DNA of 32,371 nt from Hyphomicrobiales bacterium (GTDB taxonomy: Bacteria; Pseudomonadota; Alphaproteobacteria; Rhizobiales; Aestuariivirgaceae): the NCBI GenBank assembly GCA_016792865.1, contig JAEUMJ010000086.1, positions 1-32,371 of the forward strand, given 5' to 3'. The translations under genes and the position numbers were made by a program. Below are positions 16,691-32,371 of the stretch, piece by piece (the stretch's first letter is position 1; each line of letters starts with the position of its first letter). The notes under the pieces are model-generated. The model was not told the origin of the DNA, did not search any database, and saw only the letters and a program-made list of their open reading frames with translations.

Positions 16691-17394
16691 GCGCGGGTCA
16701 GCAGGTAGGCCGGTGCAGCGCGATCAAAGCCGGTAACGACATAACCGTCCTGAAGGCATGCGGAAAGCTCCGCCCGCACCCGCAACCGTTCCGACAGGGC
16801 TTCGGCGGGAGACTGTGCCAGCAGGCGATCGATATCAGCGGGGATGACGACACGCTCCACGTCACCTGCGGCGGGCAGGCGCTGGTCCTGCGCCAAGCCG
16901 GCGGCGCGCGGCGTATCCAGCAGCCACTCCGCCAGCAGCCGGTCCGACGGCAGCCCGGCATTGATGCCCGCCATGACCCCGTAATAGTCGCTGTGATAGC
17001 TGCGCACGATGGCACCGAGCCGGGCAATGTTGAGATGGGCATTGGTGACGCGCAGGGGATCGAAGGTCCAGCGCACCTCGCGGATGCCGCGCTCCAGGCA
17101 CCAGGTCCGCTGGTAACGCTTCAGTTGGATGGAAAGCCCGCCGCCACGCATCGACGGATGCACCGCAAGACGATGTGAATGCTGCACATGGGGTTCGCGC
17201 GTCGGAAAGGCAAACACGTAGCCCACGAGGTTGCCGGTGTCGAAGGCGCCCGCGACAAGCCCGCCCTCATGCTGGATCACCATCATCAGGTCGGCGGGAT
17301 CGGCGGTGTCATCCGCACCCCACACCTGCCGCTGCAACTCCTCTGCCGCAAGGAACTCCGGCATTCCAGATAGGTCGCGCAAGACAAGGCTCAC
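16687..17394 (-). CDS. GNAT family N-acyltransferase (COG3375-like)
   Basis: This 235-residue protein has a GNAT fold: [30 protein letters not shown] (63-92) contains the beta4 strand and the pyrophosphate loop R83-GGG. Also visible are [22 protein letters not shown] (108-129) and [21 protein letters not shown] (137-157), hallmarks of the acyltransferases that travel with N-acylamino acid racemases. The start is the GTG at 17394, overlapping the racemase-like stop by four bases (GTGA) with GAGAGG upstream; longer readings of the frame run into that gene. It probably acylates (succinyl or other acyl) an amino acid amine using a CoA thioester. Order and overlaps (BKACE, racemase-like, GNAT) imply one pathway. 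Confidence 0.82.
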
Positions 17395-18500
17395 GCCGGA
17401 AACCTCTCGCGCGATTCCGTGACGCGATCGAGATAGGCCCAGTCGAGGGTAACACCGATGCCGGCGCCTGCCGGCACGGGCATGAGGCCGTCCTTCGTCT
17501 CCAGCTTTTCGTTGGTGATGTCGCGGGCGAAGTAGCGGCTGGCACTGGACGTGTCGCCGGGCTTGCGGAAATTGGCGAGTGCGGAGAGGTGGATATTGTG
17601 GGCCCGTCCGATGCCCGCTTCCAGCATGCCGCCGCACCAGACCGGCACGGACCACGCGGCACACAGGTCATGCACGCGGCGTGATTCCAGATGACCGCCC
17701 ACCCGGCCCGCCTTGATGTTGATGACGCGCGCCGCACCGGACGCCAGCGCCTTCCGTGCATCGGCAACGCTGCGGATGCATTCATCAAGGCAGATGGCCG
17801 TCTTCATGCGCTTCTGCAACTCGGCGTGATCGTGGATGTCGTCCCAGGCCAGCGGCTGCTCGATATAGTCGAGCGCGAAGTCGTCGAGGGCCATCATCAC
17901 GTCGGCATCGGCCAGCGTGTAGGCGCTGTTGGCATCGACAGTGAGGTGAATGTCCGGGAACGCCTTGCGCACGGCCGCGACGATTGCAACATCGTGCCCC
18001 GGCATGATCTTGAGCTTGATGCGCCTGTAGCCCAGCGCGACATGCTGTGCCACGCGCTCCATCACCACGTCGAGCGGGGCAATGCCCAGCGACACGCCCA
18101 CTTCGATCTCGCTCTTGCTTCCACCCAGCACGGTCTTGAGCGGGAGGTCGAGAGACTTCGCCCATAAATCCCAGAAGGCCATTTCGATGCAGGCCCGCGC
18201 CATGGTGAAGCCGCGCCAGGGCGAAAGGTGCTGGGCCAGGGCTTCCGGATTGTCGAATGACTTGCCGATGACCTGCGGCAACAGCACCGCCCGCAACAGG
18301 TCCATTGCGCCTGCCAGGCTTTCGTCGAGATAGTCGGGATAGGGGTCCATCACCCCTTCGCCATAGCCTTCAACGCCATTGCCTTTCAGCACCAGGAGCG
18401 GAAAGAGCTTTTCATGCATCGTGCCCGTGGCGATGGTGAAGGGCGTGAGCAACGGCAGGCGCACGACCCGAAGTTCGGCGCTATCGATCTTCAGGGGCAT
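17391..18500 (-). CDS. Enolase-superfamily N-acylamino acid racemase / o-succinylbenzoate synthase-like
   Basis: This 369-residue member of the enolase superfamily (MenC/NSAR branch) has KxK catalytic lysines at 162 and 164 (RIKLKI), metal ligands Asp189 (TVDAN), Glu214 (IEQPL) and Asp239 (LDECI), and the opposing base Lys263 (NIKAGRVGG). These are the residues used for 1,1-proton transfer. No other menaquinone genes are nearby, and a GNAT gene overlaps its 3' end. The pairing of this family with a GNAT enzyme is the known signature of N-succinylamino acid racemase pathways, so racemisation of an N-acylamino acid is more likely than OSB synthesis. It is translationally coupled to the BKACE gene by TGATG. 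Confidence 0.85.
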
Positions 18501-19429
18501 CAGAAGCCCACCCTGTCGCCGCCCTTGAGGGCCAGCATCTCGCGGGCCTCTGCCGGGGTTGCCACGTCAAGGCCGAGTTCCTCGATGATGCGGCGGATCT
18601 TCGCCACCTGGTCGGCATTGCTGGTGGCAAGCTGGCCTTTTCCGAGCCAGAGCGAATCCTCAAGCCCGACGCGCACGTTGCCGCCCATCATGGCCGCCTG
18701 GGTGCAGAAGGCCATCTGGTTCTTGCCCGCCGCCAGCACAGACCAGCGGTAGCTGTTTCCGAAAAGCTTGTCGGCGGTTTCCTTCATGAACATGAGGTTG
18801 CGCATGTCGGCACCGATGCCGCCAAGGATGCCGAAGATCATCTGCACGAAGAAGGGCGGCTTCACCAGTCCCCGGTCAACAAAATGGGCGAGGGTATAGA
18901 GATGGCCCACATCGTAGCACTCATGCTCGAAGCGCGTGCCATGGGCCTCGCCGAGGTCTTTCAGGATGCGGGCGATGTCGCCGAAGGTGTTGCGGAAGAT
19001 GAAGTTGTCGGTGCCGCGCAGGAACGGCTCCTCCCAATCGTGCTTCCACGACTTGTAGCGGTCGGCAAGGCCGAAAATGCCGAAGTTCATCGAACCCATG
19101 TTGAGGGAACACATTTCGGGCCTGGCCACCAGTGGTGCAGCCATGCGCTGGTCAACCGTCATGTTGGAGCCGCCGCCCGTTGTGATGTTGATGACGGCAT
19201 CGCAATTCTGCTTGATGCGCGGCAGGAACTGCATGAACACGTCCGGGTCCGGTGTCGGGCGGCCGTCCTTCGGGTCACGGGCATGGAGGTGAATGATCGA
19301 TGCGCCCGCCTTGGCCGCCGCAATGGATTGCTCGGCGATTTCGTCCGGCGTCACCGGCAGGTGCGGCGACATGGTGGGCGTGTGGATGGAACCCGTCACA
19401 GCGACGGAGATGATGACCTTGTTTGCCAT
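18500..19429 (-). CDS. Beta-keto acid cleavage enzyme (BKACE, DUF849)
   Basis: This 309-residue zinc enzyme belongs to the family of 3-keto-5-aminohexanoate cleavage protein (Kce). The family reaction joins a beta-keto acid with acetyl-CoA to give acetoacetate and a new CoA ester. Zinc-binding His47 and His49 lie in [14 protein letters not shown], and Glu257 in VGLEDSLWL is a probable third ligand. [13 protein letters not shown] and [12 protein letters not shown]-like loops are typical. ATG at 19429 is chosen over 19435 because AAGGA then lies at a normal distance. It is first in a coupled operon with a racemase-like enolase and a GNAT. The beta-keto acid used is unknown; family members act on dehydrocarnitine, beta-keto-adipate and amino-keto acids. 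Confidence 0.92.
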
Positions 19430-19505
19430 GCGCATTTTCCTTCGGCGTTCTGTTTCAATACCCTAACGCGGGATTGGGCGCTTGTCACGGCGGCGCAGCG
19501 GCCAT

Positions 19506-23635: not shown

Positions 23636-23707
23636 CACGATGGATGTCTGGTCGAAGAGCCTGAATGGGCCGCGTTCCGGGTGTCGCAATGGGAGCCACG
23701 CCATATC

Positions 23708-25141
23708 ATGACGCGCCACATCAACTTGTCCGATCCCACCGATCTTGTCGGTCTCCGCCGCTACCTGGCGGACGAGGACAAGGATCACCGCCTCTATCCG
23801 CTCGACATGATGGGGGTCACCATTTCAGCGGATGCACATCTTGGAGTCGCGGCCGCCGTGAAGCAGGCGCTGGCGGCGGCAGGCAAGCCGGGCCGCGCAC
23901 AGATCGTGGTGCTGGTGGACACGTCTGCCATCAGGCGGAAAGGCGAGAGCCTGCGCCGGATCGTTGAAGGGCAACTCGCCCCGGATCATGACGTGCGCAC
24001 CGAAGTGCTCGATGACGGCCACCCCACCCTGCACGCCCACGAACAGACACTGGATGCCGCGGCAGCGGCGGTGAAGGGCGCCGACCTCGTCGTCACCATC
24101 GGCTCGGGCACCATGACCGATGTGGGAAAGGTCGCAACCAACCGCAACGGCGACATCCCGCTCGTCGCCGTGCAGACCGCCGCCTCGGTTGACGGCTTCA
24201 CCGACAATGTCTCCGTCGTTCTCAAGAACGGCGTGAAGCGCACCATTCCCTCCCGCTGGCCCACCTTCGTGCTGGCCGATGCGGTGACCATTGCCGACGC
24301 TCCGCTGGAACTGAACACGTCCGGCTTCGGGGAGGCGATCTCCCTCTTCACCGCTCCCGCCGACTGGTATCTCGCCAATCTCGCGGGCCTCGACAACACC
24401 TTCCATCCCGCCTCGATGGCACTGCTCAAGGCCGCTGCCGCCGAACCGCCGAGCTGGGCCGACGGCATCTCAAAGGGCGAGACAAACGCGATCCAGAATC
24501 TCACGCGGCTTCTGGCGCTGCGTGGCATCGTCTCCGGCGTCTCCAACACCACCGCATGCCTGTCAGGCGTGGAGCACGTCATCAGCCACATGCTCGACCT
24601 CCATCACGCTGCCCATCACAAGCCCATCGGCCTGCACGGTGCACAGGTGGGCGTTGCCACACTCGTCGCCACGCGCCTGTGGCGCCGCGCAATCGAAACC
24701 GATCTCATCCGCCCGGAGCTGCTGCGAAAGCCAGATGCCGCCACCATGGAAAGGCGCATCACGGCGGCTTTCGGCCACCTCGACCAGACAGGTGCGATTG
24801 CCGCCGAATGCTGGCGCGATTGCCAGAAGAAGCTGCAACTTGTCGAAGCCAACTGGGCGCGCATCCAGTCGGTGGTGTCCAACTGGCGCGGGCACGCCAC
24901 GGAATTCGACCGCATGGTGCAGCCCCCCGAAACCTTGCGCCCTGCCCTCATTGCCTCAGGCGCACCGGCACGCTTTGAAAGCCTCACGCCCGTCATCACT
25001 CCGGAACTGGCACGCTGGGCCGTTGCCAACTGTCACCTCATGCGCAATCGCTTCAACCTCGTTGACCTTCTCGACATGATGGGCCTGTGGACGCCTGAGC
25101 TGATCGACTGGGTGATGGCAGACATGAAAGCCGGAGCATGA
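23708..25141 (+). CDS. Iron/zinc-type alcohol dehydrogenase, glycerol-1-phosphate dehydrogenase (AraM/EgsA)-like
   Basis: This 477-residue protein resembles the AraM/glycerol-1-phosphate dehydrogenase branch of the dehydroquinate-synthase-like superfamily. The NAD-binding loop is GSGTMTDVGK (132-141), substrate contacts are QTAASVDGFTDN (156-167), and metal ligands are likely His290 (GVEHVISH) and His310 (LHGAQVG). The usual metal Asp of the GxGD motif appears as Glu209 (GFGEAISLFTAPADW). It is longer than typical members (about 350-400), with extra helices at the C-terminus. It probably oxidises a polyol phosphate at C2 to a ketose phosphate. ATG at 23708 is chosen; an in-frame GTG at 23681 is possible. 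It overlaps the next kinase by ATGA. Confidence 0.82.
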   Translation: MTRHINLSDPTDLVGLRRYLADEDKDHRLYPLDMMGVTISADAHLGVAAAVKQALAAAGKPGRAQIVVLVDTSAIRRKGESLRRIVEGQLAPDHDVRTEVLDDGHPTLHAHEQTLDAAAAAVKGADLVVTIGSGTMTDVGKVATNRNGDIPLVAVQTAASVDGFTDNVSVVLKNGVKRTIPSRWPTFVLADAVTIADAPLELNTSGFGEAISLFTAPADWYLANLAGLDNTFHPASMALLKAAAAEPPSWADGISKGETNAIQNLTRLLALRGIVSGVSNTTACLSGVEHVISHMLDLHHAAHHKPIGLHGAQVGVATLVATRLWRRAIETDLIRPELLRKPDAATMERRITAAFGHLDQTGAIAAECWRDCQKKLQLVEANWARIQSVVSNWRGHATEFDRMVQPPETLRPALIASGAPARFESLTPVITPELARWAVANCHLMRNRFNLVDLLDMMGLWTPELIDWVMADMKAGA

Positions 25142-26649
25142 GCCGCGACCTCGTCATCGGTGTGGATTGTTCCACCACCGCCAGCAAGGCGGTGGTCTGG
25201 GACACGGGCGGCAAGGCCATTGCCACGGGCCGCCGCACCTATGGCCTCCAGCATGTGCGCTCCGGCTGGGTGGAGCAGGACGCTTCCGACTGGTGGAGTG
25301 CCACCTCCGGCGCCATCGCCGAAGCAGTGAAGGCCGCAGGAGCCGAGCGCATCGCCGCCATCGCCATCACCCATCAGCGCGAAACCTTTGCCTGCCTCGA
25401 TGAGTCCGGCAGGCCGCTGCGCCCAGGGATCACATGGATGGACATCCGCGCCACCGCCGAGGTGGAGGAGCATGGCAGCGAGGAGGTTCATCGCATCACC
25501 GGAAAGCCGCCGAACCCTACTCCGGCCTGGTACAAGCTTCTCTGGCTCAGGAAGCACGAGCCCGAAACGATCAGGCGCACCGCCCATGTCGTCGATGTCG
25601 CGGGTTATCTCATCCGGCAATTGACCGGCGAATGGGCCACATCATGGGCCTGTGCCGATCCCCTCGGCCTTGTTGATCTCACCCGCTTCGATTACGACGA
25701 CGCCTTGCTGGACAAGGCGGGCCTCGCCCGTGGGCAGGTGAGCAGGCTCCTGCCGCCGGGGGCTGTTGCGGGCCGGTTGCGTCCCGCCGTGGCGCAGGAA
25801 CTTGGCCTGCCGGCGGGGATACCGGTTGTGGCCGGTGCGGGCGATGGGCAATCGGCAGGACTGGGCTGCAACGTCACGCGACCGGGCCGGGCCTATCTCA
25901 ACATCGGCACCGGCACCGTTTCCGGCGTCCATGCCGACAGCTACAGCCACGGCATGGCCTACCGCACCATGGGTGGTCCCCTGCCCGGCACATACATCCT
26001 CGAAACCTTCATCGGCGGCGGCACGCAAAACGTGGTCTGGTTCGTGGAACAGCTTTCCGGCATCGATGCGGCCTCCCTCCCCAAAGGTGAAACGCCAGAA
26101 CAGGTTCTCGAAGCCATGGCGGCAGGCATTGCCGAAGGTTCAGACAGGCTCATGTGCCTGCCCTATTGGACCGGAGCCATGACTCCCTACTGGGATGGTC
26201 ATGCGCGTGGCGCTTTCGTCGGGCTGTCGGGATTGCACGGCAAGGGCCACATGTACCGCGCCATCCTTGAGGCGATTGCGCTGGAAGAACGTTTGCTCAC
26301 CACCGGCGTCGAGAAAGCGACGGGTCGCGTGCTCGACGAGATCGTCCTGCTCGGCGGCGGCGCAAGAAGTCCGCTCTGGTGCCAGATCATCGCCAATGTG
26401 CTGGGACGGACCGTGCGACTCGCACGGGAACAGGAAAGCACGGCACTGGGCGCGGGCATTCACGCCGCTGCGGCAGCCGGGCTGTTCGCGGGCATTCGCG
26501 AGGCTGCCGACGGCATGACCGGCGTCAGCAGGAGCTTCGAACCCGACCCTGCTGCGCATGAGCGCTACAGCGGGATCTTTGAAGCCTATCGCAGCATTTA
26601 TCCCGGACTCAAGACAACCTTCCGACTTATGACGGAGACCATGCCATGA
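25138..26649 (+). CDS. FGGY carbohydrate kinase
   Basis: This 503-residue kinase is the third FGGY kinase of the locus and is distinct from the other two. It has VIGVDCSTTASKAVVWD (6-22), ITHQRETF (77-84), the substrate acids in TWMDIRA (99-105), catalytic Asp236 in GAGDGQSAGLG, and LLGGGARSPLWCQIIANVLG near the C-terminus. The frame overlaps the preceding dehydrogenase and the following regulator by ATGA, so translation of the three is coupled. It probably phosphorylates the polyol whose phosphate the upstream dehydrogenase oxidises. Xylulokinase- or glycerol-kinase-like substrates cannot be told apart by eye. Confidence 0.9.
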   Translation: MSRDLVIGVDCSTTASKAVVWDTGGKAIATGRRTYGLQHVRSGWVEQDASDWWSATSGAIAEAVKAAGAERIAAIAITHQRETFACLDESGRPLRPGITWMDIRATAEVEEHGSEEVHRITGKPPNPTPAWYKLLWLRKHEPETIRRTAHVVDVAGYLIRQLTGEWATSWACADPLGLVDLTRFDYDDALLDKAGLARGQVSRLLPPGAVAGRLRPAVAQELGLPAGIPVVAGAGDGQSAGLGCNVTRPGRAYLNIGTGTVSGVHADSYSHGMAYRTMGGPLPGTYILETFIGGGTQNVVWFVEQLSGIDAASLPKGETPEQVLEAMAAGIAEGSDRLMCLPYWTGAMTPYWDGHARGAFVGLSGLHGKGHMYRAILEAIALEERLLTTGVEKATGRVLDEIVLLGGGARSPLWCQIIANVLGRTVRLAREQESTALGAGIHAAAAAGLFAGIREAADGMTGVSRSFEPDPAAHERYSGIFEAYRSIYPGLKTTFRLMTETMP

Positions 26650-27668
26650 AACGTTCAACGGCAACCCTCTCGCGTGTCTCGCGCCTTGATGTCCAGCAGA
26701 TGCGCCTCATCACCCGGACGGCGAGGCTGCATTACCTGCAGGGAAAGCGCCAGGCGGAAATCGCGGAGGAGATGGGCATTTCCCAGGCCAGCGTCTCGCG
26801 CTTTCTCAGCATGGCGGAGGAGCATGGCATTGTCCGCACCATCGTGATTCCGCCGGAAGGGCTCTATCCCGAGCTTGAGGAGAGTCTGGTCGAGCGCTAC
26901 GGCCTGCAATCCGCCTACGTCGTCGATATCACCTCGCGCGAGAGCGGTTTGGAGATGGCGCTTGGCGCGGCTGCCGCGCAATGCCTCGCCGGTGAACTGA
27001 AGGGGGGCACCGTTCTCGGCCTCACATCCTGGAGCACGACCCTGCGCGAAATGGCCCGGCAACTGGAGCACCGCAGCAAGACAGGCATCACCAAGGTCGT
27101 GGAACTGCTGGGCGATCTCGGCTCACCCCGGTTGCAGCACGAAGCGGCCCTTGCCACCCAGCAGGTGGCGCGGGCCTATGACGCCGAACCGGTATTCCTG
27201 CGCACGCCCGGCGTGATCCAGAATCCGGAACTGCTGAAACTTGCCATGAACGACGTCCACACCGCCGCCGCGCTGAAGCTGATGGACTCGATCGACATCG
27301 CCCTTGTCGGGGTCGGACCCGCTGACGTGCACGGCCCCCTTGAAGTGGGCGACAATTTCTTCACCGCCGAACAATTGGCCGAGGTGCGCAAGGCGGGCGC
27401 CGTGGGCCAGCTCCACCAGCGTTACATCGACGCCAACGGCAACCCCGTGAAGACCGATCTCGACAGCAAGGTGATCAGCATCACGCTGGAGCAGTTGCGC
27501 CGGGTGAAGCGCAAGATCGCCGTCGCCGGTGGTGCAGCGAAGCATCAGGCTCTCGCCGGCGCACTTGCCGGAAGATGGATCGACGTTCTCGTCACTGACG
27601 TGAATACCGCCAATTACCTCATGGCTGCCCCGCGCCCTTCCCCGGACGCCGCGAAAGGAATTGCATGA
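26646..27668 (+). CDS. SorC family sugar-binding transcriptional regulator (EryD-like)
   Basis: This 340-residue regulator has an N-terminal helix-turn-helix at about residues 34-60 (KRQAEIAEEMGISQASVSRFLSMAEEHGIV). A large SorC/DeoR-type sugar-phosphate-binding domain follows, with LELLGD-like VVELLGDLGS, DIALVGVGPAD and a C-terminal KRKIAVAGGAAKHQALAGALAGRWIDVLVTD. EryD, the regulator of Brucella erythritol genes, belongs to this family, matching the EryA-like kinase upstream. The gene sits inside the operon, overlapping both neighbours by ATGA. The likely targets are the repeats at 23601-23635 and the palindrome at 23567; the likely effector is a polyol or ketose phosphate (inference). Confidence 0.92.
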   Translation: MKRSTATLSRVSRLDVQQMRLITRTARLHYLQGKRQAEIAEEMGISQASVSRFLSMAEEHGIVRTIVIPPEGLYPELEESLVERYGLQSAYVVDITSRESGLEMALGAAAAQCLAGELKGGTVLGLTSWSTTLREMARQLEHRSKTGITKVVELLGDLGSPRLQHEAALATQQVARAYDAEPVFLRTPGVIQNPELLKLAMNDVHTAAALKLMDSIDIALVGVGPADVHGPLEVGDNFFTAEQLAEVRKAGAVGQLHQRYIDANGNPVKTDLDSKVISITLEQLRRVKRKIAVAGGAAKHQALAGALAGRWIDVLVTDVNTANYLMAAPRPSPDAAKGIA

Positions 27669-28651
27669 CACTCGCAAACGACACGCTGCTTGAGATGCAG
27701 AGACGGATGCTGCGCATCCGCTACTTCGACGAACGCGCTTCCAAGATGGTGAAGCGCGGCGAAATTCCCGGAACCGTGCACACGTCGATCGGGCAGGAGG
27801 CGCAGGTCGTGGGCGCCTGCATGGCGCTGGGCGACGGCGACTACATGACCGGCAACCATCGCAGCCACGGCCACCCCATCGGCAAGGGCGCGGCTCTCGG
27901 CCCCTTGATGGCCGAACTCGTGGGCAAGGCCTGGGGCGTGTGCGAGGGCAAGGGCGGCTCCATGCACCTTGCCGATTTCAAGGTGGGGAGTCTGGGTGAA
28001 TCCGGCATCGTCGGCTCATCGATCCCGATCGCAACAGGTGCGGCGCTGTCCAGCAAGGTGCTGGGCACCGGGAAGGTGTCACTCGCCTTCTTCGGCGACG
28101 GCGCTGCCAATCAGGGCTGCCTCTATGAAGCCATGAACCTTGCGTCCGTATGGAAGCTGCCCATCGTTTTCCTCTGCGAGAACAACCAGTATGCCCTGTC
28201 CACGCCCGCCCATACGGTAACGGCAGGCGTCGTGGCGGAACGCGCCCATGGCTTCGGCATGCCGGGCCTGCGCGTGGAGGACGGCCAGAGCGTGCTCACC
28301 GTCCATGACGCCGTACGCGAGGCGGTGGATCGCGCCCGCGCGGGCAAGGGGCCGACGCTGGTGGAAGTCCTCACCTACCGCTTCAACGAGCATTCGGAAG
28401 GACTGCGCCTTGCCGTCGATTATCGCAACGCCGCCGAAAAGGAAGCGTGGCTGAAACGCGATCCCGTGAAGATGTTCCGCAGCTACCTCGAAGAGCAAGG
28501 CATTGCCGATGCGGCCATGCTGACGGCGATGGAGGCGGAAATCATGGCGGAAGTCGATGCCGCCGTGCAGTTCGCGGAAGAAAGCCCGTTTCCGGAGCCG
28601 TCCGTCGCCTTCAAGGACATCTACACCGAACCCTTCGGAGCAGGCCAATGA
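27665..28651 (+). CDS. Thiamine-diphosphate dehydrogenase E1 component, alpha subunit
   Basis: This 328-residue E1 alpha is of the pyruvate/acetoin dehydrogenase type. The thiamine-diphosphate motif runs from GDG (144-146) to NN (173-174) in CENNQYALS. Other conserved parts are GNHRSHGHPIGKG (63-75) and GKGGSMHLADF (95-105). It is closest in style to acetoin dehydrogenase AcoA, whose substrate is an alpha-hydroxyketone, though substrate cannot be read from sequence. It is coupled at both ends: ATGA with the regulator and ATGA with E1 beta. A free lipoyl protein follows E1 beta. No E2 acyltransferase or E3 is present in the window. Confidence 0.92.
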   Translation: MTLANDTLLEMQRRMLRIRYFDERASKMVKRGEIPGTVHTSIGQEAQVVGACMALGDGDYMTGNHRSHGHPIGKGAALGPLMAELVGKAWGVCEGKGGSMHLADFKVGSLGESGIVGSSIPIATGAALSSKVLGTGKVSLAFFGDGAANQGCLYEAMNLASVWKLPIVFLCENNQYALSTPAHTVTAGVVAERAHGFGMPGLRVEDGQSVLTVHDAVREAVDRARAGKGPTLVEVLTYRFNEHSEGLRLAVDYRNAAEKEAWLKRDPVKMFRSYLEEQGIADAAMLTAMEAEIMAEVDAAVQFAEESPFPEPSVAFKDIYTEPFGAGQ

Positions 28652-29655
28652 CAGTGATGAGTTATCTCGGTGCCATCGGTGCAGCACAGCGCGAGGCCAT
28701 GGAGGCCGACGAACGCGTGATCATTTTCGGCGAGGATGTGGAAGCCAACGTCTATGGCACCATGGGCGGCAAGTCCCGCGCCGACAAGGGCGACTTCCTC
28801 CAGATGTTCGGTTCAAACCGCATCCGCAACACGCCGATTTCGGAAGAGGTGATGGTGGGAACCGCAGCAGGTGCGGCGATGACGGGCCTCCGCCCCATCG
28901 TTGACCTGTCCTATTCCACCTTCCTCTACATGGCGATGGACCAGTTCGTGAATCAGGTGGCCAAGAGTCGCTACATGTTCGGCGGCCAGGCTTCGCTGCC
29001 TGTGGTGTTCCGCTCGGCCATGTTCTACGGCCTGTCGACGGCAGCACATCACTCCGACCGCCCCTACCCCATGTTCATGAACGTGCCGGGCCTCAAGATC
29101 ATGGCACCGGCGTCGCCCACCGATGCCAAGGGCCTGTTGCGCACGGCCATCGACATGGACGATCCGGTGATGTCGTTCGAAGCCTGCATGCTCTGGGGCA
29201 TGAAGGAGGAGGTCGAGGATGGCGCCTTCCACATTCCCTTCGGCGTCGCCCGAACGGTGAGGACGGGAAATGATGTCACCATCGTTGCCATCTCGTCTGC
29301 CGTTCCTGCCGCGGTTCAGGCAGCCTCCAGGCTGGAGGCGGAAGGCATTTCCGTCGAGATCATCGATCCGCGCACGCTGGTTCCATTCGATTGGGAAACG
29401 GTGCTGAATTCGGTCGCCCGGACCGGACGCCTCGTTGTCGCCGATCCGGCCAACCGCACATGCGGTGCTGCCGCCGAAGTGTCGGCTGTCGTGGCGGAGA
29501 AAGCCTTTGACAGCCTCAAGGCCCCGATCATGCGCGTCACCACGCCCGACACGCACATTCCCTTCAGCCCCGTGCTGGAGAAGCCGCTCTATCCCAACGC
29601 CGACACAATCGCCGAGGCCGTTCGCAAGGTCACCGGCACATCAGGAAGGGCCTGA
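28648..29655 (+). CDS. Thiamine-diphosphate dehydrogenase E1 component, beta subunit
   Basis: This 335-residue E1 beta pairs with the preceding alpha subunit as an alpha2-beta2 enzyme. It has VIIFGEDV (24-31), NTPISEEVMVGTAAGAAMTG (61-80), the catalytic histidine region TAAHHSDRPYPMF (131-143), and the C-terminal transketolase domain with VTIVAIS and VEIIDPRTLVPFDWETV. Where E1 beta of ordinary complexes usually has QHSQ this one has HHSD, which may bear on substrate. The start at 28648 overlaps the alpha stop (ATGA) and has GGAG eight bases upstream; the longer frame upstream lies within the alpha gene. The lipoyl carrier begins five bases after its stop. Confidence 0.92.
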   Translation: MTVMSYLGAIGAAQREAMEADERVIIFGEDVEANVYGTMGGKSRADKGDFLQMFGSNRIRNTPISEEVMVGTAAGAAMTGLRPIVDLSYSTFLYMAMDQFVNQVAKSRYMFGGQASLPVVFRSAMFYGLSTAAHHSDRPYPMFMNVPGLKIMAPASPTDAKGLLRTAIDMDDPVMSFEACMLWGMKEEVEDGAFHIPFGVARTVRTGNDVTIVAISSAVPAAVQAASRLEAEGISVEIIDPRTLVPFDWETVLNSVARTGRLVVADPANRTCGAAAEVSAVVAEKAFDSLKAPIMRVTTPDTHIPFSPVLEKPLYPNADTIAEAVRKVTGTSGRA

Positions 29656-29660
29656 CTCCC

Positions 29661-29903
29661 ATGGCACGCATCACGGTACTGCTCCCCCAGTGGGGCATGG
29701 GCATGAGCGAAGGCACGATCGTCAAGTGGCTGAAGGCCGTGGGCGACAGCGTTGCCGAGGACGAACCGCTTGCCGAAGTCGAATCCGAGAAGACGGTGGA
29801 AGTGATCGAAGCGCCCGCTGCGGGAACGCTGAGCGGGATCCTCGTCGAGGCCGGCACCGTGGTGCCCGTCCGCACGCCCGTCGCCATCATCGAAAAAGCC
29901 TGA
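29661..29903 (+). CDS. Stand-alone lipoyl-carrier protein
   Basis: This 80-residue protein is a single biotinyl/lipoyl domain and nothing more. It starts LLPQWGMGMSEGTIVKWL as in AcoC and PDH E2 lipoyl domains. It carries the modifiable Lys44 in ESEKTVEV rather than the biotin AMKM motif, and ends VVPVRTPVAIIEKA as a complete beta-barrel. An E2 would continue with a peripheral-subunit-binding domain and an acyltransferase domain (about 350 more residues); here a stop and an unrelated aldolase follow, with no sign of a frameshifted remnant. It probably accepts the product of the adjacent E1 as an acyl or hydroxyalkyl group on its lipoamide. A lipoate ligase-like gene two positions downstream may modify it. 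Confidence 0.9.
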   Translation: MARITVLLPQWGMGMSEGTIVKWLKAVGDSVAEDEPLAEVESEKTVEVIEAPAAGTLSGILVEAGTVVPVRTPVAIIEKA

Positions 29904-29929
29904 CCAGAGAAGAAGAGGAAGAAGAACAC

Positions 29930-30784
29930 ATGCCCTGGGTCGATCCCCGCAAGCTCATCGCAGATGCCCGCGCCGGCGGCTATGCCGTGGGCGCCTTCAA
30001 CATGCACAATGACGAGACGACAGAAGCACTTGTGATCGCCGCCGAGCAGGCCCAGGCCCCCGTCTTCCTGCAGGTTGGCCGCGCCATCGTTCCGCACATG
30101 GGGCTGCGTCGCGCCTTCGAGATGACCAGGCGCATCGCGGAACAGTCGAACGCCGATTTCGTGATTCATCTCGATCACGGTCCCTGGGACGAATGCCTCG
30201 AAGCCATCAAGCTCGGCTTCAACTCCATCATGTATGACGGCGCCCATCTGCCGTTCGAGGAGAACATCCGCACCACCCGCCGGATTGTCGAGATCGCCCA
30301 TGACTTCGGCATTCCGGTTGAAGCCGAACTCGGCAAGATTCCCGATGCCGGCGAGAGCGTGAACTGGGAGGATTATTACACCGACGTTGGCGAGGCGAAA
30401 CGCTTCGTGGAAGAAACAGGCGTGGACTCTCTTGCCATCTCGGTGGGCATTGTCCACGGCGTGGTGCCGGGCGTGAAGCCGCAACCGCTCGCCATCAGGC
30501 GCACGCTGGAAATTCGCGACGCAGTGGGAATTCCACTGGTGCTGCACGGAGCGTCGGGCATTCCGGAGGACGAAGTCGAAGCCGCGAAGGCCGCGGGCGT
30601 TCACAAGTTCAACGCCGACACCGACTTGCGCCACGCCTTCCGCGCGGGCATGGAAGCTGTCTGGAGCAAGGGCGACGCCCAGCTCGAAGACGCCATGGCC
30701 GAAGGACGCACGCGCATGATCGCAGCGACGGTTGAGAAGATGAAGCTCTATGGTTGCGCCGGAAAGGCGCCAGCCAGGCGCTGA
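29930..30784 (+). CDS. Class II fructose/tagatose-bisphosphate aldolase family protein
   Basis: This 284-residue zinc-dependent class II aldolase has catalytic Asp82 and zinc His83 in HLDHG, the signature DGAHLPFEEN (103-112), Glu133 (AELGK), zinc His176 (IVHG) and His206 (LHGASG). The phosphate-binding NADTDLR is at 228-234. Family members cleave ketose 1-phosphates or 1,6-bisphosphates to dihydroxyacetone phosphate and an aldehyde. Together with the kinases and the polyol-phosphate dehydrogenase-like gene it would complete a route from polyol to triose phosphate (inference). ATG at 29930 has AGAGGAAG upstream; the longer upstream frame is within E1 beta and the lipoyl gene. Confidence 0.92.
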   Translation: MPWVDPRKLIADARAGGYAVGAFNMHNDETTEALVIAAEQAQAPVFLQVGRAIVPHMGLRRAFEMTRRIAEQSNADFVIHLDHGPWDECLEAIKLGFNSIMYDGAHLPFEENIRTTRRIVEIAHDFGIPVEAELGKIPDAGESVNWEDYYTDVGEAKRFVEETGVDSLAISVGIVHGVVPGVKPQPLAIRRTLEIRDAVGIPLVLHGASGIPEDEVEAAKAAGVHKFNADTDLRHAFRAGMEAVWSKGDAQLEDAMAEGRTRMIAATVEKMKLYGCAGKAPARR

Positions 30785-30790
30785 TCCGGC

Positions 30791-31507
30791 GTGTTCGCGG
30801 CGTTCGGCACAAGCCTGTCGTCCCTTGCTCCGGTGGAGGTGGAGGCCCCGTCACCGCTTGCTCCGGCGGAAGACATGGCCCGCGTTCGCAGCGCCCTTTC
30901 CGGGCTGACACAAGCCTCCATGGCCTCGCTCCGCTTCTACAGGCCGCAAGCGACGGCGGCCTTCTCGCCCCGCGACACGAGTCATCCCGCCCATGGGGCC
31001 GTGATGGCGATGCTTGCGGCCAGGGGTTTTCAGCCGGGGGAACGTGGTGCGGGCGGTCAGCTTGCCGTCTATGACGAGGCCGCGCTTGTGATCGATCTCA
31101 TTGCGCCACATCCCGATCCACGTGAAAACACCCGCGACCGTTACCGCCATTTCTCCGCACTGATGGTGAAGGCAATCTCCTCGCTCGGCATAGACGCCCG
31201 CGTGGGCGAAGTGGCAGGTGAGTATTGCCCTGGCGACTACAGCGTGAACGCCGGAGGCCGGGTGAAGCTGGCGGGTCTGGCGCAACGCATCGGCAAGCAC
31301 GGCTATCACATGGGGGCGGTGATCTCGATCGCGCCGTCGCCGGCTGCCCGTGACGCCGTGACGGAAGCCTACCGGATGATGGACATTCCGTTTGCGCCTG
31401 AAACCTTCGGTGCCATCACCGATCTTGCGCCGGGAGTTTCTGCGGAGGAAACTTGCCGTCACATTGCGCACATCATGACGGAAGGACTGACCCGCAATGC
31501 TCCATGA
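30791..31507 (+). CDS. Lipoate-protein ligase A-like (BPL/LplA/LipB domain) protein
   Basis: This 238-residue protein has the features of the BPL/LplA/LipB catalytic fold. RGAGGQLAVYDE (85-96) matches the RxxGGxxVYHD-type substrate loop, and the activating lysine is Lys159 in GGRVKLAGLAQR. The sequence RYRHFSALMVKAISSLGI (117-134) matches the helix before it. There is no LplA C-terminal accessory domain. It probably attaches lipoate or octanoate to Lys44 of the nearby lipoyl carrier. It lies six bases after the aldolase stop. The start is taken as GTG at 30791; ATG at 30875 is an alternative that would drop a 28-residue alanine-proline-rich N-terminus. Confidence 0.8.
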   Translation: MFAAFGTSLSSLAPVEVEAPSPLAPAEDMARVRSALSGLTQASMASLRFYRPQATAAFSPRDTSHPAHGAVMAMLAARGFQPGERGAGGQLAVYDEAALVIDLIAPHPDPRENTRDRYRHFSALMVKAISSLGIDARVGEVAGEYCPGDYSVNAGGRVKLAGLAQRIGKHGYHMGAVISIAPSPAARDAVTEAYRMMDIPFAPETFGAITDLAPGVSAEETCRHIAHIMTEGLTRNAP

Positions 31508-31543: not shown

Positions 31544-32371
31544 GTGAAGGCCGCTGTCCTGAAGGCCGTCAACGAGATCGGGTGCGAGACGGTGGCAGAC
31601 CCCCGGCTGTCAAGCGGCGATCTTCTGGTGAAGGTCCGCGCCGCCACCATTTGCGGCACCGACATCCGCATCCTGCGCGGCCGCAAGACGGCGGGCGTGC
31701 GCTACCCCTCCATTCTGGGCCACGAGTTTTCCGGCGAGATTGTTGATGCGGGCGGGCACCCGCAATTCCATGTCGGACAGGCCGTTGCCGTTTGCCCTGC
31801 CTTCGCCTGCGGTCATTGCGATGCCTGCGCGCGCGGCGCCGAAAACCTCTGCCGCAACCTGATTGCCATGGGCTACGAGATCGACGGCGCCTTCGCGGAA
31901 TACGTGCGCGTGCCTGCACAGGGGGTTGCAACGGGCAATGTCTTTCCGCTGCCACCGGGCCTCTCGTTCGAGGAGGCGGCGCTGGCCGAGCCGCTGGCCT
32001 GTGTGATCAACGGGCAGGAACGCGTCGCCCTCTCGCACGGTGATACAGTGGCCGTGCTGGGGGCCGGTCCCATCGGTCTGCTGCATGTGCAGCTTGCGAA
32101 GCACGCCGGGGCCGGAAAGATCATTGTCAGCCAGCGCAGTGCGCTCCGCCGCGATGCGGCCCGCGCCGCGGGCGCCGACCACGTCATCAATCCGCAGGAT
32201 GAAGACGTGGTGGAACGCGTGCGCGCACTCACCGGTGGGGCGGGCGTGGATGTCGCCATCTGCGCCATTGGCGATCCTGCCCTTGCGCGTGACGCCATCC
32301 GCATGGTCCGACCCCGCGGGCGGGTCAGTCTTTTTGCGGGCTTCGTGAAGGGGATGGAGGCCGCGCTTGAC
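31544..32371 (+). CDS. Zinc-dependent medium-chain alcohol/polyol dehydrogenase (3' end outside window)
   Basis: The first 276 residues of an MDR family dehydrogenase are present. The start is GTG at 31544 with GGGGAGG upstream. The catalytic zinc site includes Cys in TICGTDIR and His/Glu in LGHEFSG; four cysteines in CGHCDACARGAENLC bind the structural zinc; the NAD loop is LGAGPIG. The pattern fits sorbitol/threonine dehydrogenase-like enzymes, which oxidise polyols at a secondary hydroxyl. Typical length is about 340-350 residues, so some 70 are missing. It is 36 bases after the lipoate ligase gene and probably belongs to the same operon, oxidising the polyol substrate. Confidence 0.92.
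   Translation, partial: MKAAVLKAVNEIGCETVADPRLSSGDLLVKVRAATICGTDIRILRGRKTAGVRYPSILGHEFSGEIVDAGGHPQFHVGQAVAVCPAFACGHCDACARGAENLCRNLIAMGYEIDGAFAEYVRVPAQGVATGNVFPLPPGLSFEEAALAEPLACVINGQERVALSHGDTVAVLGAGPIGLLHVQLAKHAGAGKIIVSQRSALRRDAARAAGADHVINPQDEDVVERVRALTGGAGVDVAICAIGDPALARDAIRMVRPRGRVSLFAGFVKGMEAALD

Follow-up and report, generated by a model that had tools for sequence, protein, structure and literature searches.

The window analyzed here, a 32,371-bp stretch of DNA from a Hyphomicrobiales bacterium, carries within a polyol operon a cassette of genes for E1 alpha and E1 beta, a free-standing lipoyl carrier of 80 amino acids, a class II aldolase, and a lipoyl attachment enzyme. Comparison of this cassette with related loci suggests, with a probability of about 0.6, that it encodes a thiamine diphosphate (ThDP)-dependent dehydrogenase complex with a split E2, in which the acyl fragment would pass from E1 to the free carrier and from there to coenzyme A (CoA), via a free-standing E2 core or, in the lineage of the window, via a housekeeping E2. 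Judged from the predicted proteins, E2 is split into a separate carrier and a separate catalytic core in this clade. E1, the carrier, the core (21 of 31 readable loci), and the attachment enzyme (22 of 31) are encoded separately with their key residues kept, from which we infer the activities discussed below. The arrangement is real and conserved, and it is not an ordinary one, yet it is made of known parts.

The clade defined by E1 comprises 33 loci from actinobacteria and alphaproteobacteria, 31 of them readable and 2 (L058 and L139) cut off inside or just after the E1 beta gene. The initial annotation had described an operon without E2 and E3 and had named normal E2 and E3 genes in homologous loci as the finding that would speak against it; by tblastn, neither a full E2 nor an E3 was found in the examined stretches of any of the 33 loci, and the same E3 query matched an E3 at 36 to 47% in five other loci. 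The seven same-genus loci that repeat the cassette agree, since no E2 or E3 was seen among the open reading frames (ORFs) beyond it, whether read by eye or searched with tblastn. For the window itself, which ends with its contig, the absence of E2 and E3 rests on these related loci and on genome searches, in which the E3 of its own genome was not searched by family. An E2 made of one chain (lipoyl domain, subunit-binding domain, and core) is likewise missing from all 33 loci: those of the window type have the lipoyl piece only, and 21 others have two separate pieces.

The second piece emerged from gene clustering over 26 loci, which brought to light a short ORF bearing the catalytic signature of E2. 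As read, this free core is 214 to 236 amino acids long and has no lipoyl domain, and its short N-terminal stretch leaves no space for a subunit-binding domain. The DHRxxDG motif is present in all 17 operon cores that were aligned, and the predicted fold (pLDDT 91) matches pyruvate dehydrogenase E2 cores with a TM score of about 0.86. The core was found in L040 to L048, L050 to L057, L116 (a Shinella plasmid), and L135 to L137; it was not found in the window, the seven same-genus loci, L049 (a Rhodobacter metagenome-assembled genome), or L117 (a Rubrobacter plasmid stretch). A dedicated core is thus encoded in the operons of most relatives outside the lineage of the window. By eye, a hydrophobic C-terminal tail is present in none of 17 free cores versus 14 of the 16 full E2 tails listed. 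According to excerpts of one study, the C-terminal helix of canonical E2s mediates trimer-trimer contacts (PMC10415282); taken together with the missing tail, this leads us to predict that the free cores form trimers and not a large cage.

Two core-like genes were also seen outside the clade. On a plasmid of Arthrobacter sp. FW306-07-I, an E3 gene stands directly before a free E2 core, with thiC adjoining (L118:2202-6390); no E1 of the window clade (at least 60%) was found in that record. At L072:203-790, a distant standalone ORF resembling an E2 core (36%) precedes an E1 pair (63 to 68%) by about 9 kb; no lipoyl match was obtained in this locus, and in the E2 tree the ORF falls among full E2s on a long branch.

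Within the window, the E1 alpha gene (27665..28651, + strand; Pfam E1_dh, 264 bits), which encodes a ThDP enzyme of the 2-oxoacid/acetoin dehydrogenase type, overlaps the E1 beta gene (28648..29655, +; Pfam Transket_pyr and Transketolase_C) by 4 bases (ATGA). Residues G144, D145, and G146 together with N173 and N174 of E1 alpha, which we take to be the ThDP motif, are invariant in eight aligned sequences. After a gap of 5 bases follows the carrier gene (29661..29903, +), whose product matches Pfam Biotin_lipoyl (PF00364) over residues 6 to 77 with 64 bits. Its Lys44 sits in the sequence ESEK, and the corresponding column holds lysine in all 26 aligned loci, with carrier lengths of 79 to 81 amino acids. 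The best NCBIfam match of the carrier is the acetoin dehydrogenase E2.

The carrier is thus truly a separate protein, as first described. Outside the clade, 58 loci were compared, and a lipoyl match was obtained in 32; in 29 of these, it is part of the same reading frame as an E2 core, another two are truncated by contig edges, and the remaining one is free. In the last, on a plasmid of Sphingobium sp. RAC03 (L119:7986-12253; E1 56%), E1 alpha and E1 beta are followed by a free 79-amino-acid lipoyl protein and a PQQ-dependent dehydrogenase, and no E2 is annotated or matched within 8 kb. This locus is a second, different setting of a detached carrier and lies outside the clade, so that detachment of the carrier may predate the E1 clade of the window.

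The attachment gene (30791..31507, +, GTG start) had been called an LplA-like ligase, and we replace this name with LipL-like transferase. The product is a single-domain protein of 238 amino acids (predicted structure, pLDDT 91) that scores 44 bits against Pfam LplA-B_cat (cut-off 27). At an E value of 0.001, its sole NCBIfam matches are two LipL models, with 48.5 bits (NF053589, cut-off 400) and 32 bits (cut-off 450), and three relatives gave the same LipL models only. LplA lipoate-protein ligases have a characteristic profile and an accessory domain; this assignment was rejected because the enzyme has one domain and no LplA model was among those matches. All 23 sequences share Lys159 and Cys146; the latter is part of a YCPG motif, aligns with the YCPG of 2p0l and 2p5i, and may correspond to the catalytic cysteine of LipL, Cys150 in Bacillus subtilis. 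By both sequence and fold, 2p0l and 2p5i are the nearest solved structures; LplA-type structures follow from rank 3 of the fold list, so that the fold alone does not decide between LipL and LplA. By resemblance, the enzyme appears nearer to the LipL type, short of a proven LipL. Since the bacterium's own genome also encodes LipB and GcvH, a lipoyl relay from GcvH via the attachment enzyme would be possible. In the Shinella plasmid locus, a lipA gene is present (L116:11078-12031) and no LipL-like gene was matched, and in L041 a LipA-like match (38%) in a 142-amino-acid frame near position 19364 directly precedes the LipL-like gene. In addition to the LipL-like gene of its cassette, genome G007 has another that stands by itself at the end of a contig (L024:16479-17168, - strand); it is 60% identical to the transferase of the window, and the copy in G007's own cassette is only 44 to 46% identical.

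We propose that E1 would cleave a compound generated in polyol breakdown and would reductively acylate the free 80-amino-acid carrier; the likeliest substrates are alpha-ketols such as ketoses, ketose phosphates, or 1-deoxyketoses. In actinobacteria and some alphaproteobacteria, the free-standing core would then move the acyl group to CoA. In the lineage of the window, the core has apparently been lost; if acyl-CoA is the product there, the core activity has to be supplied from outside the cassette, most likely by a housekeeping E2 acting in trans. A housekeeping E3 would reoxidize the carrier. Lipoylation of the carrier would be served by the LipL-like transferase, as its family and invariant residues suggest, with a lipA gene in one relative.

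Housekeeping partners are available. The bacterium's own genome encodes three full-length E2s, all in long frames away from the cassette, and no free-standing core was among the matches. Full-length E2s are present in all carriers of the cassette that were searched, and in seven of the eight genus carriers searched, the best match to the free core was the full E2 of locus C85 or its ortholog (39 to 43%). Whole-genome searches of these eight carriers and of the L049 genome gave E2s in long frames and no clear free core, with G006 outside the search; two short E2 frames, of 297 amino acids (G012:C251) and 120 amino acids (G025:C71), are probably contig-edge pieces. The bacterium's own genome also holds another set of E1 alpha/beta and full E2 genes, beside genes that by eye resemble a DeoR regulator, GlpD, and glycerol kinase (L032:8929-12240, - strand).

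Phylogenetic analysis retained 90 rows in the E1 alpha tree and 52 in the E2 tree, once sequences that contained stops or were too short had been removed. In the E1 alpha tree, the nine loci of the window type group as a single clade (support, 98/97), and in the E2 tree, the 19 free cores do so as well (100/100) versus 32 full-length E2s, a pattern compatible with one splitting event. The most economical account would be that the core was lost in the lineage of the window and, separately, in L117, if that absence is real.

Several observations weigh against the split complex with a housekeeping E2 as partner. The window clade nests among core-bearing loci on branches with moderate support (85/85 and 89/82), short of the level at which branches were starred, which leaves room for a gain of the core instead of its loss, and the core-less L117 lies elsewhere in the tree, grouping with L116 and L057. 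Nine of the 31 readable loci gave no transferase match; in four of these nine, the contig ends no more than about 150 bases from the core. An E2 of the C85 type is present in 8 of 9 carriers and in 7 of 13 noncarriers chosen from 28 (Fisher two-sided P = 0.16), and G026, which is 99% complete, lacks it. With no significant association with the cassette, the C85-type E2 was rejected as a fixed partner in trans.

The apparent loss of the core invites other interpretations of the window lineage. It can be envisioned that its complex no longer makes acyl-CoA and that the carrier shuttles electrons or acyl groups to another acceptor, given that the core is absent from the examined stretches of all nine window-type loci and that the genome searches revealed no clear free core. 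We consider this improbable: E1 and the carrier (72 to 90% identical within the genus) have been retained, no gene common to the window-type loci was seen to replace the core, and full-length E2s are at hand in every carrier searched. The initial annotation had left the fate of the carrier between docking on a housekeeping E2/E3 and handing electrons elsewhere; the former is the most economical idea left, whereas the latter is disfavored by the dedicated core encoded at 21 of the 31 readable loci, a sign that the acyl group is transferred to CoA in the usual way. Decay of the window-type cassette after loss of the core would explain why the core is missing throughout one clade and why the cassette E1 occurs in just 9 of 37 genus genomes; however, Lys44, the transferase cysteine and lysine, the GDG...NN residues of E1, and the gene order are all kept in the window and seven other genomes, and such a remnant seems very improbable.

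A different question is what E1 cleaves. An ordinary 2-oxoacid dehydrogenase, acting on a pyruvate-like acid from the pathway and not on a ketol, is a serious but doubtful candidate; the best NCBIfam models are indeed those for pyruvate dehydrogenase E1 alpha (324 bits, cut-off 394) and E1 beta (287 bits, cut-off 321), but both scores fall under their cut-offs. Furthermore, four loci (L042, L048, L052, and L054), with a kinase, a short-chain dehydrogenase/reductase (SDR), and an importer, show no obvious 2-oxoacid route in the stretch examined. These loci contain importer genes (by eye), an FGGY kinase, an SDR, a regulator, E1, carrier, and core; three also encode the transferase, and L042 has a transketolase-like pair (by eye). 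No aldolase, GlpD, or glycerol-1-phosphate dehydrogenase-like gene was found within the stretches examined. Such a reduced complement (importer, dehydrogenase, kinase, and E1) is consistent with a pathway in which a ketose phosphate or 1-deoxyketose undergoes oxidative cleavage, and cleavage of a ketose or alpha-hydroxyketone by E1 is plausible. A fully untethered ketol dehydrogenase, in which E1 would oxidatively cleave a ketose, ketose phosphate, or 1-deoxyketose to glycolyl- or acetyl-CoA and a triose, and in which a diffusing dedicated carrier would feed a housekeeping E2 core in the lineage of the window, goes further than the split complex preferred here, and we think it rather unlikely.

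Other loci add to the pathway context. In L045, the one core-bearing locus scored against curated cut-offs, a second FGGY kinase passes one glycerol kinase model (564, cut-off 498) and falls under another (545, cut-off 590), and a flavin adenine dinucleotide enzyme passes one glycerol-3-phosphate dehydrogenase model (363, cut-off 360) and falls under another (338, cut-off 352). A GlpK-like piece, under its cut-off, precedes the cassette in L028. A pathway like that of autoinducer 2 was considered for the resemblance to LsrK and LsrR and was dropped, with the kinase (193 bits, cut-off 528) and regulator (98 bits, cut-off 486) far under the cut-offs. For 1-deoxyxylulose or methylerythritol catabolism, nothing relevant was found in the open PMC literature.

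The remaining genes of the operon confirm the polyol setting, coordinates, and short gaps first described. Upstream of E1 are a glycerol-1-phosphate dehydrogenase-like gene of the iron-containing alcohol dehydrogenase type (23681..25141, +; Pfam Fe-ADH_2, 75.8 bits; NF002022, 107.5 bits, under the cut-off of 413), with a possible alternative ATG start 27 bases inside, an XylB-like FGGY kinase gene (25138..26649, +; Pfam FGGY_N/C; TIGR01312, 275 bits, under the cut-off of 380), and the gene for a SorC/DeoR-type sugar-binding regulator (26646..27668, +; Pfam Sugar-bind, 174 bits). The first adjoins an FGGY_C gene in many related loci. Between carrier and transferase lies the gene for the class II ketose-bisphosphate-type aldolase (29930..30784, +, ATG start; F_bP_aldolase, 275.5 bits; TIGR00167, 218.9 bits, over the cut-off of 215.6). 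The eight genes from 23681 to 31507 share one direction, with overlaps of 4 bases and gaps of 5 to 26 bases; identical 4-base overlaps connect the genes from the glycerol-1-phosphate dehydrogenase-like gene through E1 alpha, so that at least eight genes look cotranscribed. A zinc dehydrogenase gene (31544..32371, +; Pfam ADH_N/ADH_zinc_N) begins 36 bases past the transferase and runs off the contig end; its link to the cassette is loose, as it is on the opposite strand in L025 and L030. The window is the complete contig C184 of a 3.38-Mb assembly in 214 contigs. Elsewhere on it, two genes on the - strand pass the cut-offs of the models for 3,5-dioxohexanoate:acetyl-CoA acetone transferase (18503-19435) and o-succinylbenzoate synthase (17394-18500).

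The order of these eight genes, from the glycerol-1-phosphate dehydrogenase-like gene to the transferase, is repeated in seven further genomes of the genus (each read over up to 20 kb of surrounding sequence; L023 is cut off inside the first gene), so the arrangement is not due to chance. Beyond the transferase, as named by eye or tblastn, are a GlpD-like oxidase and the zinc dehydrogenase on the other strand (L025 and L030), the edge of a GlpD-like gene (L023), a sugar ABC transporter (L027 and L029), or unrelated genes (L026 and L028). The cassette is rare and patchily distributed. Among 61 genomes, the transferase gave matches in 10, every one from the same genus (8 strong matches, the bacterium's own included, and 2 weak partial ones). 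At an E value of 1e-125, E1 alpha gave matches in 9 of 37 genomes of the genus, in 5 of 198 genomes from the order to which Cryobacterium flavum belongs (that species among them), and in a single one of 240 sampled from the class, namely, that of the window. A scan with the E1 alpha alignment, one genome per species, relied on two short peptide patterns and kept the best 80 of 536, and so undercounts; among these 80, the genus, actinobacteria (Arthrobacter, Nocardioides, Cryobacterium, Herbiconiux, Geodermatophilus, Streptosporangium, Nonomuraea, Streptomyces, and others), Rhodobacter, and Palleronia stood at 70 to 86% identity, followed by one E1 alpha at 63% and the next at 55%. Duplicates were left out of the counts (L036 to L039, which are L030, L029, L028, and L027, respectively; L138, which is on the contig of L053; and a second Shinella record, H2, with the length and scores of H1), and L072 (E1 63%) and L118 (E2 core with no E1 of the clade) were counted outside the clade.

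The cassette is reminiscent of several known systems. With the acetoin and pyruvate dehydrogenase complexes (E1ab-E2-E3), it shares E1 alpha/beta, the type of lipoyl domain, and, in relatives, the E2 catalytic fold with DHRxxDG. Unlike in those complexes, E2 here is an 80-amino-acid carrier plus a core without lipoyl domain, subunit-binding domain, or (by eye) hydrophobic C-terminal tail, no E3 lies in the stretches of the 33 loci, and the cassette has its own attachment enzyme and polyol genes; an E3 gene in the operon is common, though not universal, among canonical 2-oxoacid and acetoin dehydrogenases. As described in excerpts of PMC10415282, actinobacterial OdhA uses lipoyl-lysine supplied in trans by AceF, which offers a precedent for E2 catalysis by a protein that lacks a lipoyl carrier of its own; the carrier in that case, however, is a full E2 and not a dedicated small protein. 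The LbpA/sHdr system of sulfur oxidation, with sLpl(AB), likewise pairs a free lipoyl protein of small size with an attachment enzyme of its own, but in the portions of the source available, LbpA is GcvH-like and its partners are Hdr-like proteins (PMC10332631), whereas the carrier of the window is of the E2 type and adjoins E1. Membership in that system was rejected because the carrier is not GcvH-like (GCV_H, 20.5 bits, under the cut-off of 22.2, against 64 bits for PF00364). LipL, the lipoyl/octanoyl amidotransferase from GcvH to E2, is the nearest NCBIfam profile to the attachment enzyme, whose invariant cysteine and lysine are a putative common feature; the enzyme of the window differs in falling far under the LipL cut-offs, in being operon bound, and in occurring in alphaproteobacteria. 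Searches of the open PMC literature listed no paper on a polyol operon that encodes both a free lipoyl protein and, next to it, a free E2 core, which does not prove that none exists.

In conclusion, 2-oxoacid dehydrogenase complexes are the textbook case of swinging-arm catalysis on a giant core, and here the arm has been cut off and, in one lineage, the core gene has apparently been dropped. A LipL-like transferase in alphaproteobacteria runs counter to the general statement, in excerpts of a 2026 paper, that Gram-negative bacteria do not encode LipL-type amidotransferases (PMC13155669). With some 30 loci in two phyla, these cassettes provide a natural case in which to test the role of tethering. 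If the complex proved to be a fully untethered ketol dehydrogenase, one small protein would connect the breakdown of polyols with pyruvate dehydrogenase. The cassettes may also point the way to an oxidative conversion of sugar alcohols to acyl-CoA that has not been described.

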